Source of the DNA: Malaciobacter marinus
GTDB taxonomy: Bacteria > Campylobacterota > Campylobacteria > Campylobacterales > Arcobacteraceae
DNA length: 64,000 nt
Reading direction: 5' to 3'
NCBI RefSeq assembly: GCF_003544855.1
Contig: NZ_CP032101.1
Coordinates: 1 to 64,000, forward strand
The notes under the pieces were generated by a model, which saw only the letters and a list, made by a program, of their open reading frames with translations, was not told the DNA's origin and ran no database searches. Shown here piece by piece: positions 1-50,511 of this stretch. The translations under genes were made by a program, and so were the position numbers. The first letter of the stretch is position 1, and each line of letters opens with the position of its first letter.

Positions 1-1317
1 ATGACAAATAAAGAGTTTTTAGCAATTATTAAACAAGAATCTACAGCATTAGATTATAATAGATATTTAAAACAGCTAGTTTACAAAAAAATTTCATCTG
101 ATGAAAAAATAGCTGTATTTGAAGTATCAAATAAATATATTGCTTCGTGGATAAAAAGTAAATATAGAAATCTTATACAACACTGCTTTGAAACTATTGA
201 TGGAACAAAACCAGAAATAGAGATAAAGGTTGCTGGTGAAAAGAAAACTAAAAAAGAAATTATTACTGAAAAACTAAAAAATGATACAGCTGAAAGTACG
301 ATATTAAACCCTTCATATACATTTGACTCTTTTGTAGTTGGGGGCTCAAATCAAATGGCTTACAACGCTTCACTTGCTGTATCAAAAAAACCTGGTATTC
401 AATACAATCCATTATTTATTTATGGGGGAACAGGACTTGGGAAAACCCATCTTTTACAAGCAATTGGAAATGATGCAATTCAACAAGGAAGAACAGTTAT
501 TTATGTAACAATTGAACAGTTTATGAATGATTTTACTTTCTCAATTAAAAATAAAAACATGGAGCACTTTAGAAATAAATATAGAAAGTGTGATGTTTTA
601 CTAATTGATGATATTCAATTTTTAAGTGGAAAAGAACAGACTCAAGAAGAGTTTTTCCATACATTTAATGAACTTCATAATGCAAAAAAACAAATAGTTA
701 TGACATCAGATAGACTTCCATCTCAAATTGCTGGACTTGTTGATAGATTAAAGTCTAGATTTGAATGGGGATTAACAGCTGATATCCAAATTCCAGGACT
801 TGAAACAAAAATTGCAATTATTGAAAAGAAATCTGAATTAAATGGAATTCATTTAAGTAGAGAAATTATTAACTTTATTGCAACTAATTTAGATAACTCA
901 ATTAGGGAAATAGAGGGTGTTCTTATTCGAATTAATGCAAGTGCTTCTTTATTAAATCAAGAGATTAATTTGGAATTAGTTCAAGGTTTATTAAAAGAGC
1001 AAATTAAAGAAACAAAAGAGAATATTAAACTACCTGATATTATTAATTTAGTAGCAAGTGAGTTAAATATTAAACCAAGTGATATAAAATCTAAAAAAAG
1101 AACTGCAACTGTAGCAAATGCTAGACGAGTAGTTATATATCTTGCTAGAGAATTAACTCATAACTCAATGCCTGATATTGCAAAGTTTTTAGGTATGAAA
1201 GATCACAGTTCTATTTCACATAATATAAAAAAAGCAAATGAGTTAATAGAAAAAGATGAAAACTTTAAATTAATCATCGAAAATTTGAAAAATAAGTTAA
1301 TAAATAAGGAGTGGTAA
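1..1317 (+). CDS. dnaA: Chromosomal replication initiator protein DnaA
   Basis: Initiator ATPase that binds DnaA boxes at oriC, opens the duplex and helps load the helicase. The 438-residue product has the usual layout: N-terminal domain I, a short lysine-rich linker (about 80-100), an AAA+ core with Walker A GGTGLGKT near residue 142 and Walker B LLIDD near 200, and a C-terminal DNA-binding domain ending in the signature DHSSISHNI near 401. The length is normal for the family. The gene begins at base 1 with ATG, which suggests the replicon was numbered from dnaA. It is followed by a structured intergenic stretch that looks like the origin and then dnaN, the classical order. Identification is secure. 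Confidence 0.98.
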   Translation: MTNKEFLAIIKQESTALDYNRYLKQLVYKKISSDEKIAVFEVSNKYIASWIKSKYRNLIQHCFETIDGTKPEIEIKVAGEKKTKKEIITEKLKNDTAESTILNPSYTFDSFVVGGSNQMAYNASLAVSKKPGIQYNPLFIYGGTGLGKTHLLQAIGNDAIQQGRTVIYVTIEQFMNDFTFSIKNKNMEHFRNKYRKCDVLLIDDIQFLSGKEQTQEEFFHTFNELHNAKKQIVMTSDRLPSQIAGLVDRLKSRFEWGLTADIQIPGLETKIAIIEKKSELNGIHLSREIINFIATNLDNSIREIEGVLIRINASASLLNQEINLELVQGLLKEQIKETKENIKLPDIINLVASELNIKPSDIKSKKRTATVANARRVVIYLARELTHNSMPDIAKFLGMKDHSSISHNIKKANELIEKDENFKLIIENLKNKLINKEW

Positions 1318-9231: not shown

Positions 9232-9261
9232 GCAAAAAAAAAGAGTGCTTTATAGCACTCT
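9232..9261 (-). terminator. Terminator of the SRP RNA
   Basis: On the minus strand AGAGTGCT, loop ATAA, AGCACTCT is followed by eight or more T. The 5' arm doubles as the 3' end of the SRP RNA. Confidence 0.9.
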
Positions 9262-9364
9262 TCTCCAGATACCCAAACACACCATCAAGTAAGGTGCCTT
9301 GCTGTGTTCCCACCCTGGGGCATTGTCTTAAATGATGATTGCAAAGGTCTAAAGAAGAGCACTC
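9254..9364 (-). ncRNA. ffs: 4.5S / SRP RNA (small bacterial type)
   Basis: Read on the minus strand, the apical part contains CAGG-GUG-GGAA-CAC-AGCA: a GGAA tetraloop closed by three pairs, with the asymmetric CAGG/AGCA internal loop that binds Ffh in all bacterial SRP RNAs. The two ends pair perfectly over 12 positions (CUCUUCUUUAGA with UCUGGAGAAGAG), with further helices between, giving one long hairpin of about 110 nt. The 3' end merges with a rho-independent terminator. The exact mature ends are estimates. With Ffh and FtsY (not in this window), the RNA targets nascent membrane proteins to the translocon. Confidence 0.93.
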
Positions 9365-12758: not shown

Positions 12759-13655
12759 TTACATATAAAACTCTTTTAAGATTTCATCGTTTTTAGAAAA
12801 TAATTTATAAGTTGTATTATTATAGTTAAACTCTAGATAATTTGCATGTAACCAAAGCCTATAACTACCTGTTTTTTCATATCTTTTTTTATCATCAAGC
12901 TCTTTATTTAAATAAGCTTCTGCTATTTCATCATCAATTCCATAGATAGGATCTCCTATTATTCTATGACCAATAGAATATAAGTGAACTCTAATTTGAT
13001 GTTGTCTTCCTGTATGTGGAATTGCTTCTACTAATGTTATGTTCTTTTTACAATTATAATTTAATGGCTTAACAATAGTTAATGATTTTTTTCCTTTTTG
13101 GGAAGTTTTCATCCTAACACCAATATTTTCCCCCTCTTTTTCTAAATAGTTTTCTATAGTAATATCTTTTTTTAATTCACCTTGAACTATTGCAAGATAT
13201 GATTTTTTATACTCTTTTTCAATAAACATATCTTTTAGTCTTTTTTCACTTTGTTTATTTTTACAAACTATTACAAGCCCAGATGTTTCAGCATCAATTC
13301 TATGGGCTAAATTTGCATTGTTTCCAAAATGATAACGAATCTCATCTAATAAAGAGTATTTTGTGTTTTTTGAAATTGGATGAACCATTAGTTTTGTTGG
13401 CTTATCAAATAAAGCAAAATCTTTAAATTCAAGCAATGGATTAAGACCTCTTGTATGTCCCTCAAACTCTGCTATATATATACTATTTGTATTTATTTTT
13501 TCATTTAAAATAAATGGTTTTTGGTTTTGGTCAAAAACTCTTGCTCTACTTATATACTTTTGCGCTAACTTGGGCTCTATCTTTAAATCTTGCAGTAAAA
13601 AATGTTGTATTTTTTTGCCTAAAATAGCTTTATATTTTTTTAAAATAAAAGGCAC
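12759..13655 (-). CDS. RluA-family pseudouridine synthase
   Basis: Converts uridine to pseudouridine in rRNA or tRNA. The 298-residue product has the RluA catalytic motif HRIDAETSGLVIV with the nucleophile D121, and the second family motif PHTGRQHQIRVHL near 213-225 followed by GDPIYG. The N-terminal 65 residues look like a reduced S4 RNA-binding module (KKIQHFLLQDLKIEPKLAQKYI). The IDAETSG form, where most have LDxxTSG, is a known variant in RluA relatives. The exact target site (RluA, C or D type) cannot be told from sequence. It is 31 bases upstream of the Cache kinase on the same strand, so the two may be co-transcribed. Confidence 0.9.
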   Translation of the reverse strand: MPFILKKYKAILGKKIQHFLLQDLKIEPKLAQKYISRARVFDQNQKPFILNEKINTNSIYIAEFEGHTRGLNPLLEFKDFALFDKPTKLMVHPISKNTKYSLLDEIRYHFGNNANLAHRIDAETSGLVIVCKNKQSEKRLKDMFIEKEYKKSYLAIVQGELKKDITIENYLEKEGENIGVRMKTSQKGKKSLTIVKPLNYNCKKNITLVEAIPHTGRQHQIRVHLYSIGHRIIGDPIYGIDDEIAEAYLNKELDDKKRYEKTGSYRLWLHANYLEFNYNNTTYKLFSKNDEILKEFYM

Positions 13656-18633: not shown

Positions 18634-18634
18634 A

Positions 18635-18663
18635 AAAAAGAGTTTTATTAATAGCTCTTTTTA
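18635..18663 (+). terminator. Terminator after nrdB
   Basis: AAAAAGAG (18635-18642) pairs with CTCTTTTT (18655-18662), starting two bases after the nrdB stop codon. Confidence 0.75.
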
Positions 18664-18924
18664 GAAATTTCTGCGTTATCGCGGAAATTTCATCACTCAC
18701 TTACAATAGTAAGCTCCTAATAAAATTACCACTCTAGCCTTGAACTTTCAAAAAATAACTATCACTAAAACTCTTTTTGATATTCATTTATTTATAAAAA
18801 TAATAATTATAAAGAGATAGAGGAGAGGTTAAAAGAGACAATGTAAATAAAAGCTAGAGGAATATCAATTTCCAGCATTTGTTAAAGCTGAGTTGTTTTA
18901 AATTTTTTTCGAAAAAGTCGAGGA

Positions 18925-18978
18925 CTGTTTGAGTAAGTAAAGTGCTAAATGCACTTTACTTAGGAGTTCCGCAGACAG
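18925..18978. repeat. Long inverted repeat / hairpin
   Basis: Outer arms CTGTTTG (18925-18931) and CAGACAG (18972-18978) enclose a perfect inner stem TAAGTAAAGTGC / GCACTTTACTTA around the loop TAAAT. No T-run follows, so it does not look like an ordinary terminator. Confidence 0.6.
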
Positions 18979-19205
18979 AAAAGAAATTTAAAATGACGAG
19001 GGAAGCTTTGCCTTTAACAATTAGCTGCTTGCTTTTTGCAATACTTTTTTCAATAAAAAAGTATTATATAGAATATTATAGTTCTTTCGTTATTCATATA
19101 ATAAGCCATTTAAACACTCACCTTAACAAAACCATTAATTTCTAAGAATAATCACTTTAAAAGCTATTTATACATAAAATAACACATATTTTAAAAGGAT
19201 TGACA

Positions 19206-19463
19206 ATGTTAAAAGATAAAGCATTAGGTTTTATAAAAAAGCAGATACTAGATTTAAATGATTTTTCTTATGAAGTAGAAGAAGATGACCAGTTTATACA
19301 TGTTATTTTTACAGAAGCATTAGGAAAAGAAATAGAAAAAGAGTTTACATTTAAACTAGTAAATGATACATTATATATGCACTCAATTTCATATGGGTGG
19401 AAACCTGTAGAAAAAGGTGTAGCAAATAAATATTTTTGGATAGATTTATTAACAAAGGATTAA
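19206..19463 (+). CDS. Small conserved-looking hypothetical protein
   Basis: I choose ATG 19206 (85 residues) over TTG 19200 because AAGGA lies seven bases before the ATG and only one before the TTG. The product is acidic, with alternating hydrophobic strands (FSYEVEEDDQFIHVIFTEA, FTFKLVNDTLYMHSISYGW) suggesting a small beta-rich fold, and it has no signal peptide or membrane segment. It ends one base before the nitroreductase gene, so the two are almost certainly one operon. I do not recognise the family; co-expression with a flavin reductase is the only functional hint. Confidence 0.7.
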   Translation: MLKDKALGFIKKQILDLNDFSYEVEEDDQFIHVIFTEALGKEIEKEFTFKLVNDTLYMHSISYGWKPVEKGVANKYFWIDLLTKD

Positions 19464-19464
19464 A

Positions 19465-43074: not shown

Positions 43075-43175
43075 TATTTTCCATCCTTATTTTTATAACT
43101 TCTAAAAAATCCAATTGCTGAGACTATTGCAACTATACATATAAATACTATCATTACAATATCAAGAATTTCCAT
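43074..43175 (-). CDS. Tiny predicted membrane protein between rlmN and gltX (33 residues)
   Basis: On the minus strand ATG at 43175 is preceded by AAAAGGAAT at a good distance. The ORF overlaps the end of rlmN by 14 bases, and its stop overlaps the gltX start codon by one base. The product begins [10 protein letters not shown], has a single hydrophobic helix of about 22 residues and ends [10 protein letters not shown], a basic tail that predicts a cytoplasmic C-terminus. Removing it would leave an 87-base gap between two otherwise tightly packed genes. No family recognised; the case rests on start signals, coupling and helix composition. Confidence 0.65.
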
Positions 43176-44229
43176 TTGATTCCTTTTCTTTTAACTGCCC
43201 ACATGCTGCTGAGATATCAAGACCTTTTGATTCTCTAATAGTACAAAGCAATCCTTTATTTATTAAATATTCTTGAAATTTTACCATATCTTTACTTTCT
43301 GGTCTTTGATATGGTGTGCCAGGATATGGATTAAAGTAGATTAAATTTACTTTTGCTTTGATACCATTTAATAGTTTCAATAATTTATCAGCAGATTTTA
43401 TATCATCATTTTTATCTTTAATTACAAGATATTCAAACATAACTTTTTTTCTTGTATCAACTGGAAAATTTCTCACAGCGTTAATAATACTTTCAATATT
43501 ATATGCTTTGTTCATTGGGATTAGTTCACTTCTTAATTTGTCATCAACTGCATGTAAAGAAATTGCTAGTTGAATTCCTAAATCCTCTTTTCCTAGTTTT
43601 TCTATTTTACTACTGATTCCAGAAGTAGAAACTGTTTGTCTTCTTCTGCTTATTGCAAGTCCATCAAGTTCACTAAAAACTTTAACTGCTTTTACAAAAT
43701 TCTTATAATTATCAAGTGGTTCACCCATTCCCATATAAACAATATTAAGTGATTTATTTTCAGCTATATTGTTATCTCTTTTGATATTTACAATTTGTGC
43801 TATATATTCGCCAACTGTTAAATTCCTTACAAAACCACCTTTTGCTGTTAGGCAGAATGTACACCCTACTTTGCATCCAACTTGTGAAGAAATACAAACA
43901 GTATATTTCTCACTTCTTTCTATTTTTCCATCTTCACTAATTTTTTTCTTTTTCATCAAAAGTAGAACAGCTTCAACTGTTAATCCATCATGTAGTTGAA
44001 AAAGATATTTTATACTTCCATCTAAACTTTGCTCTTTTTTAACTATTTTCATAATATCCAAAGCATAATTTTCTTTTAATTGTTCTTTTAAATCATTTGG
44101 AATATTTTTCATTTCATCATACGATGATGCATATTTTTTATATATCCAGTTATAAACTTGTTTTGCTCTAAACGAAGGTTTCAACTCTTCTTTTAACTCG
44201 TCTAATGTAAAGTCATATATTGATTGCAT
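43162..44229 (-). CDS. rlmN: 23S rRNA/tRNA adenine-C2 methyltransferase (radical SAM)
   Basis: Methylates A2503 of 23S rRNA and A37 of some tRNAs. The 355-residue product has the radical-SAM cysteine motif [16 protein letters not shown] near 116-130, the RlmN-type N-terminus [31 protein letters not shown] near 165 and the SAM-binding STSGI segment. The methyl-carrying cysteine is in SAACGQL near 344. The C-terminal end is normal. It is the first gene of the operon with the small membrane ORF and gltX. Upstream lies a 500-base intergenic stretch with parS sites. Confidence 0.95.
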
Positions 44230-44351
44230 TATTACCTTTCATTACATCTATTCTTAGGTTTAATTATACTCTTTTTCTACTCTATTTCTGCTTTTAATAA
44301 GATAAATTGTTTAGGCTAATATTTTATCTATATGTTAAGAAACTTAATAAG

Positions 44352-44367
44352 TGTTTCACGTGAAACA
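44352..44367. promoter_or_regulatory. parS site (1), ParB-binding palindrome
   Basis: TGTTTCACGTGAAACA, a perfect match to the bacterial chromosomal parS consensus, within a slightly longer palindrome GTGTTTCACGTGAAACAC. Confidence 0.93.
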
Positions 44368-44573
44368 CTGAAATGAAACCCTATTTTTGTCTTTAATAAA
44401 GTATTGATATAAAACTATAAAGTTAAATAAAGATTGTTAAATAAGTACTAAGTAATAGTACTAGTATGATAAAGTCTAAATAAATATGATTATATAAAAA
44501 ATAAATTATTGTATAATTGTATGATTATTTTAGTTTATTATTATTTATATATTTTATACTAATTAGAAAAATA

Positions 44574-44589
44574 TGTTTCACGTGAAACA
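44574..44589. promoter_or_regulatory. parS site (2), ParB-binding palindrome
   Basis: A second identical TGTTTCACGTGAAACA, 222 bases from the first and in the same gene-free stretch. Confidence 0.93.
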
Positions 44590-44597
44590 TCGTAATG

Positions 44598-44698
44598 AAA
44601 TGCAAATAGTTTTGCATTTTTAGATGTTGAAAGCGTAATGGTCTGCAAGCATGCAGCCATGAAGCTAGGGAAATAAGTAATAAAATGCAAATAGTTTT
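44598..44698 (+). repeat. 16-base direct repeat flanking a small hairpin
   Basis: AAATGCAAATAGTTTT occurs at 44598-44613 and again at 44683-44698. The first copy forms half of a 9-pair hairpin; the second has lost the pairing arm. The 69 bases between include the GCAG-type stem. Confidence 0.7.
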
Positions 44699-44712
44699 AA
44701 AAAATTGAAGAT

Positions 44713-44737
44713 AATTGTAGTTATTTTAACTACAATT
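44713..44737 (-). terminator. Hairpin at the end of the nucleoside phosphorylase gene
   Basis: AATTGTAGTTA-TTT-TAACTACAATT, a perfect 11-pair stem overlapping the stop codon. On the minus strand the T-tract is weak, so termination may be partial. Confidence 0.55.
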
Positions 44738-45278
44738 ACTTAATAATATTTTTCTCTAGTAGTGAATTAGTCAATTTAGACATAGCTTCTTTATGATTTT
44801 TTAGAAAATCTTCATGTGCAGTTTCATTTGTATAATTTGTAACGACAAATATTCCACCAACTGGAATCTCAAACTCTTTTGCAACTTGTAAAACTGCAAA
44901 AAATTCCATATTTTCAACTCCAATACCATAGGCATTGAACTTCTTACTTAAAGAAAAATTTGAAGAAATATAGTTGGAGCTATTTACAATTGTATCATTT
45001 TTTACAAACTTATTTTCTGATTCTAATACATTATCTAATGGAGTATATGAATTATTCTGCAAAAAAGACAATTCAATATTTGCTGCTCTTTTTGACTCTA
45101 TAATATCAAAAATATTATGTTCTCCATATGAACCTGCACTTCCAACAAAAAGTATAAAATCTGGTTTATCAAAAAGGCATTTTCTTGTAAGATTAATTGA
45201 TGTCTCAATTAATCCTACACCCATAGGTTCAGCAAACTTAAAAGTTTCATTTCTACCAGCACAAATTATCATTTGCAC
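44736..45278 (-). CDS. Short purine-nucleoside phosphorylase-like protein
   Basis: A 180-residue protein of the PNP/MTAN (nucleoside phosphorylase) fold. Recognisable segments are EPMGVGLIETSINLTR near 18-33, ILFVGSAGSYGEHNIFDI near 42-59, and the substrate glutamate region GIGVENMEFFAVLQVAKEF near 118-136, followed by VTNYTNETAHEDF. It is shorter than the 230-280 residues usual for PNP or MTAN: the typical N-terminal strand-loop is missing, so activity is not certain. Short forms like this are known to me from Campylobacterota. It overlaps the SIMPL-type gene by 10 bases, in an operon led by hisF. Confidence 0.75.
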   Translation of the reverse strand: MQMIICAGRNETFKFAEPMGVGLIETSINLTRKCLFDKPDFILFVGSAGSYGEHNIFDIIESKRAANIELSFLQNNSYTPLDNVLESENKFVKNDTIVNSSNYISSNFSLSKKFNAYGIGVENMEFFAVLQVAKEFEIPVGGIFVVTNYTNETAHEDFLKNHKEAMSKLTNSLLEKNIIK

Positions 45279-49548: not shown

Positions 49549-50511
49549 ATGAATTATAAAGAGCTTGCAAAAGAAGTATTATTAACAGAAGCAAAAGAGT
49601 TAGAATTAGCTGCAAAAAACCTTGATTTTGATTTTGAAAAATTAGTTGATTTGATTGTTAATTCAAAAGGAAAGTTAATAGTAACAGGTGTAGGTAAATC
49701 TGGATTAGTGGGAACTAAAATAGCTGCAACATTAGCTAGTACTGGAACTAGTTCATTTTTCTTGCATCCAACAGAAGCAATGCATGGCGATTTAGGAATG
49801 ATAGGAAAAGATGATATTGTTTTAGGGATTTCATATAGTGGAGAGAGTGAAGAATTAATTCAAATTCTTCCCCATTTAAAAAGATTTGATATTCCTTTAA
49901 TAGCAATGGCAAAAAACAAAAATTCAACGCTTGGAAAATATGCAGATTTCTTTTTAAATATAAATGTTACTAAAGAAGCCTGTCCCTTAGATACAGCCCC
50001 AACCTCTTCTACTACTTTAACAATGGCAATGGGAGATGTTTTGGCAGTTTGTCTTATGAAAAAAAGAGAGTTTAAAAAAGAAGACTTTGCTTCATTTCAT
50101 CCTGGCGGAAGTTTAGGAAAAAAACTTTTTATAAAAGTTGATGACTTATTAAGAAAAGAGAATTTACCTGTAGTTTCACGTGAAACAAAATTAAAAGATG
50201 CAATTGTAACTATGAGTGAGGGAAGAATTGGAAGTGTAATTATAGTTGATGAAAATGAAAAAGTAATAGCACTTCTAAGTGATGGAGATTTAAGAAGAGC
50301 TCTTATGAATAAAGATTTCTCAATTGATTGTGCAATAGAAAAAGTTGCAACAATGAACCCAAAAGTTATAAATGATAAAAACATTTTAGCAAGTGATGCT
50401 TTACAAATAATAGAAGATTATAAGATACAACTTCTAATAGTAGTTGATGATAAAGAGAAACTAGTTGGAGTTTTACATATTCATGATTTAATTGAAGCAG
50501 GTATAAAATAA
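49549..50511 (+). CDS. kdsD: Arabinose-5-phosphate isomerase (KdsD/KpsF)
   Basis: Converts ribulose 5-phosphate to arabinose 5-phosphate, the first step toward KDO for lipopolysaccharide. The 320-residue product has an N-terminal SIS domain (GVGKSGLVGTKIAATLASTG near 45-64, SYSGESEE near 92, CPLDTAPTSSTT near 145) and a C-terminal pair of CBS domains (about 205-320), the standard layout. A parS-type palindrome lies inside the linker codons (50172-50187). The start has AAGGATAAG upstream. It sits 9 bases after RNase J and 8 bases before a pseudouridine synthase gene. Confidence 0.95.
   Translation: MNYKELAKEVLLTEAKELELAAKNLDFDFEKLVDLIVNSKGKLIVTGVGKSGLVGTKIAATLASTGTSSFFLHPTEAMHGDLGMIGKDDIVLGISYSGESEELIQILPHLKRFDIPLIAMAKNKNSTLGKYADFFLNINVTKEACPLDTAPTSSTTLTMAMGDVLAVCLMKKREFKKEDFASFHPGGSLGKKLFIKVDDLLRKENLPVVSRETKLKDAIVTMSEGRIGSVIIVDENEKVIALLSDGDLRRALMNKDFSIDCAIEKVATMNPKVINDKNILASDALQIIEDYKIQLLIVVDDKEKLVGVLHIHDLIEAGIK
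50172..50187. promoter_or_regulatory. parS-like site (3) inside kdsD
   Basis: AGTTTCACGTGAAACA matches the parS consensus at 15 of 16 positions (first base A for T). It encodes V-S-R-E-T in the linker of kdsD. parS sites inside genes are common in other bacteria. Confidence 0.8.

Follow-up and report, generated by a model that had tools for sequence, protein, structure and literature searches.

In bacteria, parS is the site at which the partition protein ParB is loaded onto the chromosome, so that after replication each daughter cell has a copy of the origin drawn into it. The chromosomal parS sites of type Ib ParABS systems, known from Bacillus, Caulobacter, and Pseudomonas, share with the locus described here the 16-bp palindrome, the small number of sites and the clustering near the origin. 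Intragenic and clustered parS sites are already known elsewhere, as nine of ten parS sites are intragenic in P. aeruginosa (PMC4368675). The closest described system belongs to the same phylum as the organism studied here: a parS of H. pylori was put forward in 2006 and has been crystallised together with ParB (PMC11229316; PMC7383237; PMC9178275), and the H. pylori parS/Spo0J structure (PDB 4umk) contains the closest solved relative of the ParB protein reported below. The site used in the work on H. pylori ParB, TGTTCCACGTGAAACA, differs by one base from the sites reported here. A preliminary description of this stretch of DNA had stated that the phylum has few described parS sites, which needs to be qualified, since these H. 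pylori studies already exist; within the literature searched, described parS sites of the Campylobacterales seem to be limited to this species, and no paper on parS in Arcobacter was found in a search covering few subscription papers.

The window, which is the whole stretch of 64,000 nucleotides analysed here, starts with dnaA and carries two copies of the 16-bp sequence TGTTTCACGTGAAACA in the gap between rlmN and pnp:

1..1317, plus strand: dnaA, landmark of the origin
43162..44229, minus strand: rlmN, left neighbour, with conserved synteny
44230..44735, no strand: non-coding rlmN-pnp gap, 506 bp, 22% G+C, housing sites 1 and 2
44352..44367, no strand: putative parS site 1, TGTTTCACGTGAAACA, perfect palindrome, exact match in the rlmN-pnp gap
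44574..44589, no strand: putative parS site 2, TGTTTCACGTGAAACA, perfect palindrome, exact match in the rlmN-pnp gap
44736..45278, minus strand: pnp-type phosphorylase, right neighbour, with no parS in its own coding sequence; parS inside pnp in several sister families

The two perfect 16-mers had been described as lying 222 bases apart, in a gene-free stretch about 44 kb from dnaA, and these particulars are correct: the coordinates are exact, the starts at 44352 and 44574 are spaced by 222 bp, dnaA occupies positions 1-1317, and 506 bp separate rlmN from pnp. Yet this gap is not empty, as it contains, besides parS, a hairpin at its pnp end and a structured repeat at 44586-44676. Sites 1 and 2 share a 27-nt repeat of 89% identity that extends 11 nt past the palindrome. 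Among the 60 intergenic gaps in the gene list of the window, the rlmN-pnp gap is the second longest; the longest (18634-19464) encloses an 87-aa open frame at 19200-19463. A small RNA in the rlmN-pnp gap was considered and rejected, with Rfam giving no match even at an E-value of 5, and the SRP-like look that the gap has by eye was dismissed as well, the true SRP RNA being located at 9259-9355.

In the complete Malaciobacter contig of 2,917,098 bp the exact sequence TGTTTCACGTGAAACA occurs at 44352 and 44574 only, and allowing up to one mismatch adds a single further match at 50172, so that all three lie 44-50 kb from dnaA. A first-order Markov model predicts about 2e-4 exact and 0.025 single-mismatch copies per genome by chance, and a reversed control pattern gave no match in this genome at the cut-off of up to one mismatch. 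That the palindromes arose by chance or as by-product of a repeat is hardly credible given this expected number of exact copies: a structured repeat does adjoin site 2, but the third site is coding and has no such repeat reported beside it, and the conservation across genera already contradicts this explanation. The palindromes very probably constitute two of three chromosomal parS sites which would form the centromere, because their sequence, their rarity, their clustering near the origin, their conservation in relatives and the presence of ParA and ParB with matching specificity residues all point to this identity. The features that characterise chromosomal parS are found here: matches to the 16-bp palindrome (two exact, one with one mismatch), few copies clustered near the origin in this genome as well as in its relatives, and a ParA together with a ParB that contains the GERR motif and R173/G201-type residues. 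The earlier proposal that the palindromes represent origin-proximal parS and are usable as origin landmark is supported by the genome-wide count of the palindrome and its near matches, which revealed no scatter away from the origin, and by the positions in relatives.

Such sites were found in 49 of 60 relatives, amounting to 108 sites in total versus 4 for the reversed control pattern. dnaA was located in 37 genomes, and in the 32 single-contig genomes of the order that allowed a comparison, the parS site nearest to dnaA is about 1-99 kb away; among the sites listed, G020 (1.51 Mb) and G112 (166 kb) each contribute one that is far from the origin. The GC skew sampled at 20 places in the present genome is noisy, with positive values prevailing up to about 1.5 Mb and negative ones beyond, and it agrees only broadly with an origin at position 1. 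These sites may serve as a conserved landmark of the origin domain for Arcobacteraceae and for much of the Campylobacterales. Two Helicobacter-like genomes (G113 and G123, identity inferred from ParB) differ from the present one in that their sites are not part of the rlmN-kdsD block, at a distance of 5-12 kb from dnaA. Some genomes of the families f9 and f12 (L102, L105, L111), which are probably Campylobacter- and Helicobacter-like, carry a central AT in the site (TGTTTCATATGAAACA). In genera g7, g8, g12, and g13, some of which have small genomes, parS apparently drifted to TGTTCCATATGGAACA and relatives thereof (G011, G012, G016, G026, G027, G030, G035, and G036). Residues of the ParB helix-turn-helix were considered as cause of the site divergence seen in certain genera, and no simple correlation was observed. 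The genera with TGTTCCATATGGAACA-type sites could offer a natural series to study the co-evolution of ParB and parS.

The third match, which was overlooked in the preliminary description, is situated inside a gene downstream of the gap:

49549..50511, plus strand: kdsD/kpsF, host of putative parS site 3, with Pfam domains PF01380 (SIS) and PF00571 (CBS)
50172..50187, no strand: putative parS site 3, AGTTTCACGTGAAACA, one mismatch, inside kdsD

Site 3 takes in the final base of codon 208 together with codons 209-213, GTT TCA CGT GAA ACA, encoding Val-Ser-Arg-Glu-Thr within the first CBS domain of KdsD. With up to two mismatches it is present at the same codon positions in all 20 family genomes examined, and with up to two mismatches it is kept in 45 of 46 distinct homologues, which had been chosen by protein identity (at least 74% to the window protein) regardless of the site. 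Throughout these 46 homologues, codons 209-212 (GTT TCA CGT GAA) use one codon each wherever the amino acid is kept, and this invariant four-codon run ranks first of 87; the arginine of the site is always encoded by CGT, while elsewhere in the same genes CGT accounts for 4% and AGA for 82% of arginine codons. The homologues share kinship, and these codon figures are descriptive rather than independent trials. As judged from codon usage, this stretch of kdsD is constrained at the DNA level and not by the protein alone, because synonymous positions are frozen and CGT is used despite the preference for AGA.

The family has conserved the surrounding gene block, gltX-rlmN-pnp-SIMPL-hisF-ksgA-rnj-kdsD-rluB-rarA-hemJ-phoH, and sites were present in it in each of the 20 genomes examined. 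The gap between rlmN and pnp varies from about 30 to 506 bp across the family loci, and an intergenic site with up to one mismatch was found in 19 of 32 loci (17 loci in one comparison plus L150 and L180, whose sites lay past the end of the BLAST alignment), leaving about 13 of 32 in which it is missing and in which the kdsD site persists. This absence from over one third of the family loci makes the presumed role of the intergenic pair less secure. We propose that the kdsD site represents the evolutionary anchor of the cluster in Arcobacteraceae and that the intergenic pair are accessory copies. It is very unlikely that, conversely, the intergenic pair is the functional centromere and the match in kdsD a mere passenger kept by the need of the protein for Val-Ser-Arg-Glu-Thr. 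Both exact matches are indeed intergenic and the kdsD copy has one mismatch in this genome; however, this explanation does not account for the frozen synonymous positions and the invariant CGT, in most other families KdsD lacks these residues at that place, and the kdsD site is retained in the loci that lack the intergenic one.

Some family members carry an extra parS, located either in rarA or downstream of phoH. Elsewhere in the order, other families have parS within pnp, where it is again read as Val-Ser-Arg/His-Glu-Thr, or beyond rlmN within the gene of a rluD-like pseudouridine synthase (L133, L135, L219, L222, and others), where the other open frame translates it as Leu-Phe-His-Val-Lys-His directly following the conserved HQIRVH motif; families f16 and f18 possess both the pnp and the kdsD site. 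The rluD-like gene of the window itself (12759-13655), 31 kb away, contains no parS site. Across the genomes compared, the neighbourhood stays fixed while the putative parS sites shift between genes. The suggestion that selection had favoured a dedicated, uncluttered site does not hold in view of these data: the site with the highest conservation in the cluster is located inside the coding sequence of kdsD, the intergenic parS is restricted to 19 of 32 family loci with gaps of very different length, and the sites of sister families sit inside pnp and the rluD-like gene. If the centromere reading is correct, nature would provide here a clear-cut case of a centromere site that is fixed in codons and has shifted from gene to adjacent gene, with the region staying in place and SMC-ScpAB undetected.

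The parB gene is encoded at 2,097,144-2,098,007 on the minus strand and adjoins parA and the genes of the ATP synthase b-subunit. This arrangement differs from the type Ib ParABS systems, as parA and parB are 820 kb away from dnaA and the origin and not beside the parS sites, and as no SMC-ScpAB was found. ParB contains the domains ParB_N and HTH_ParB, its best match in the PDB is H. pylori Spo0J (4umk, 222 bits), it carries the GERR motif, and the four positions governing the preference for parS versus Noc sites are occupied by R/T/Q/G. Arginine and glycine are present at the equivalents of Caulobacter R173 and G201, which were reported to be absolutely conserved in ParB, instead of the Q173/R201 of Noc-type proteins (PMC7383237), while the Caulobacter contact residues Q162, G170, and R204 correspond to H, F, and K according to manual mapping. 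Binding of the palindromes by a different protein, for example a ParB paralogue of the Noc type or a protein regulating rlmN or pnp, is highly improbable. The palindromes are located upstream of rlmN, and a ParB-like domain also occurs in a second protein, encoded at 749 kb; however, the latter is a methyltransferase-like fusion of 568 aa that falls below the family cut-off, control of a promoter offers no explanation for the same site inside kdsD, pnp, and the rluD-like gene of relatives, and the sites stay near dnaA across the order. In the 568-aa protein (G000:C1:749155-749526, L007) a ParB-like N-terminal part is fused to a DNA methyltransferase-like part; its gene adjoins a DNA adenine methylase-like gene and looks like a part of a mobile element.

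Transferring the known ParABS mechanism to the parS reading of all three sites, ParB dimers would be loaded with CTP at these sites, clamp and slide along the flanking DNA, and thereby build a single partition complex covering the gltX-phoH region, and ParA would separate the duplicated complexes soon after this region is replicated. Loading of SMC-ScpAB at parS, a common but not defining trait of chromosomal parS, was not found here: SMC gave no match above the family cut-off in 21 genomes and ScpA was absent in 31 genomes, in both cases with positive controls. The SMC-loading role that ParB plays in other bacteria is thus probably absent, and ParB probably works with ParA alone, because SMC-ScpAB was not detected.

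Site 2 is bordered by the structured repeat mentioned above:

44586..44676, plus strand: structured repeat with two hairpins and an outer stem, starting with the last four bases of putative parS site 2

The repeat has a fold z of -4.2 and scores 98 bits with the covariance model R1, which was built from five parS-adjacent copies. The model matches 53 of 101 family genomes and one copy in the genome studied here; the strongest matches, mostly from genus g17, adjoin parS, which is partly expected from the way the model was built, and weaker copies lie scattered at a distance from parS. In an alignment of 26 distinct rows, which was fitted to the structure and favours it, 94% of the cells are paired, and in this structure-fitted alignment 81 two-sided changes were counted versus 21 (sd 5) in shuffled and up to 17 in slid controls. 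For all copies, some of which do not touch parS, the parS-end base and the one opposite to it are A-T in 18, G-C in 5, C-G in 1, and G-T in 1, and in parS-adjacent copies a parS ending in A, G, or C is paired with the matching partner base each time. The outer stem makes use of the last four bases of parS and the partner changes with the last base of parS, so the repeat could be a working part of the centromere, in which a hairpin or cruciform might limit ParB sliding to one side or tune loading; we consider this unlikely. The repeat may instead be a mobile or terminator-like element that is incidentally bordered by parS. No Rfam family matched the repeat, a scan of viral contigs with its core gave no match, and an attC/integron-like nature was rejected by eye, as pairing occurs inside and not on the AAC/GTT boxes. 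The structured repeat was also observed at L282-L292 and L294, and it sometimes occurs in tandem arrays (G159, G195, and G177).
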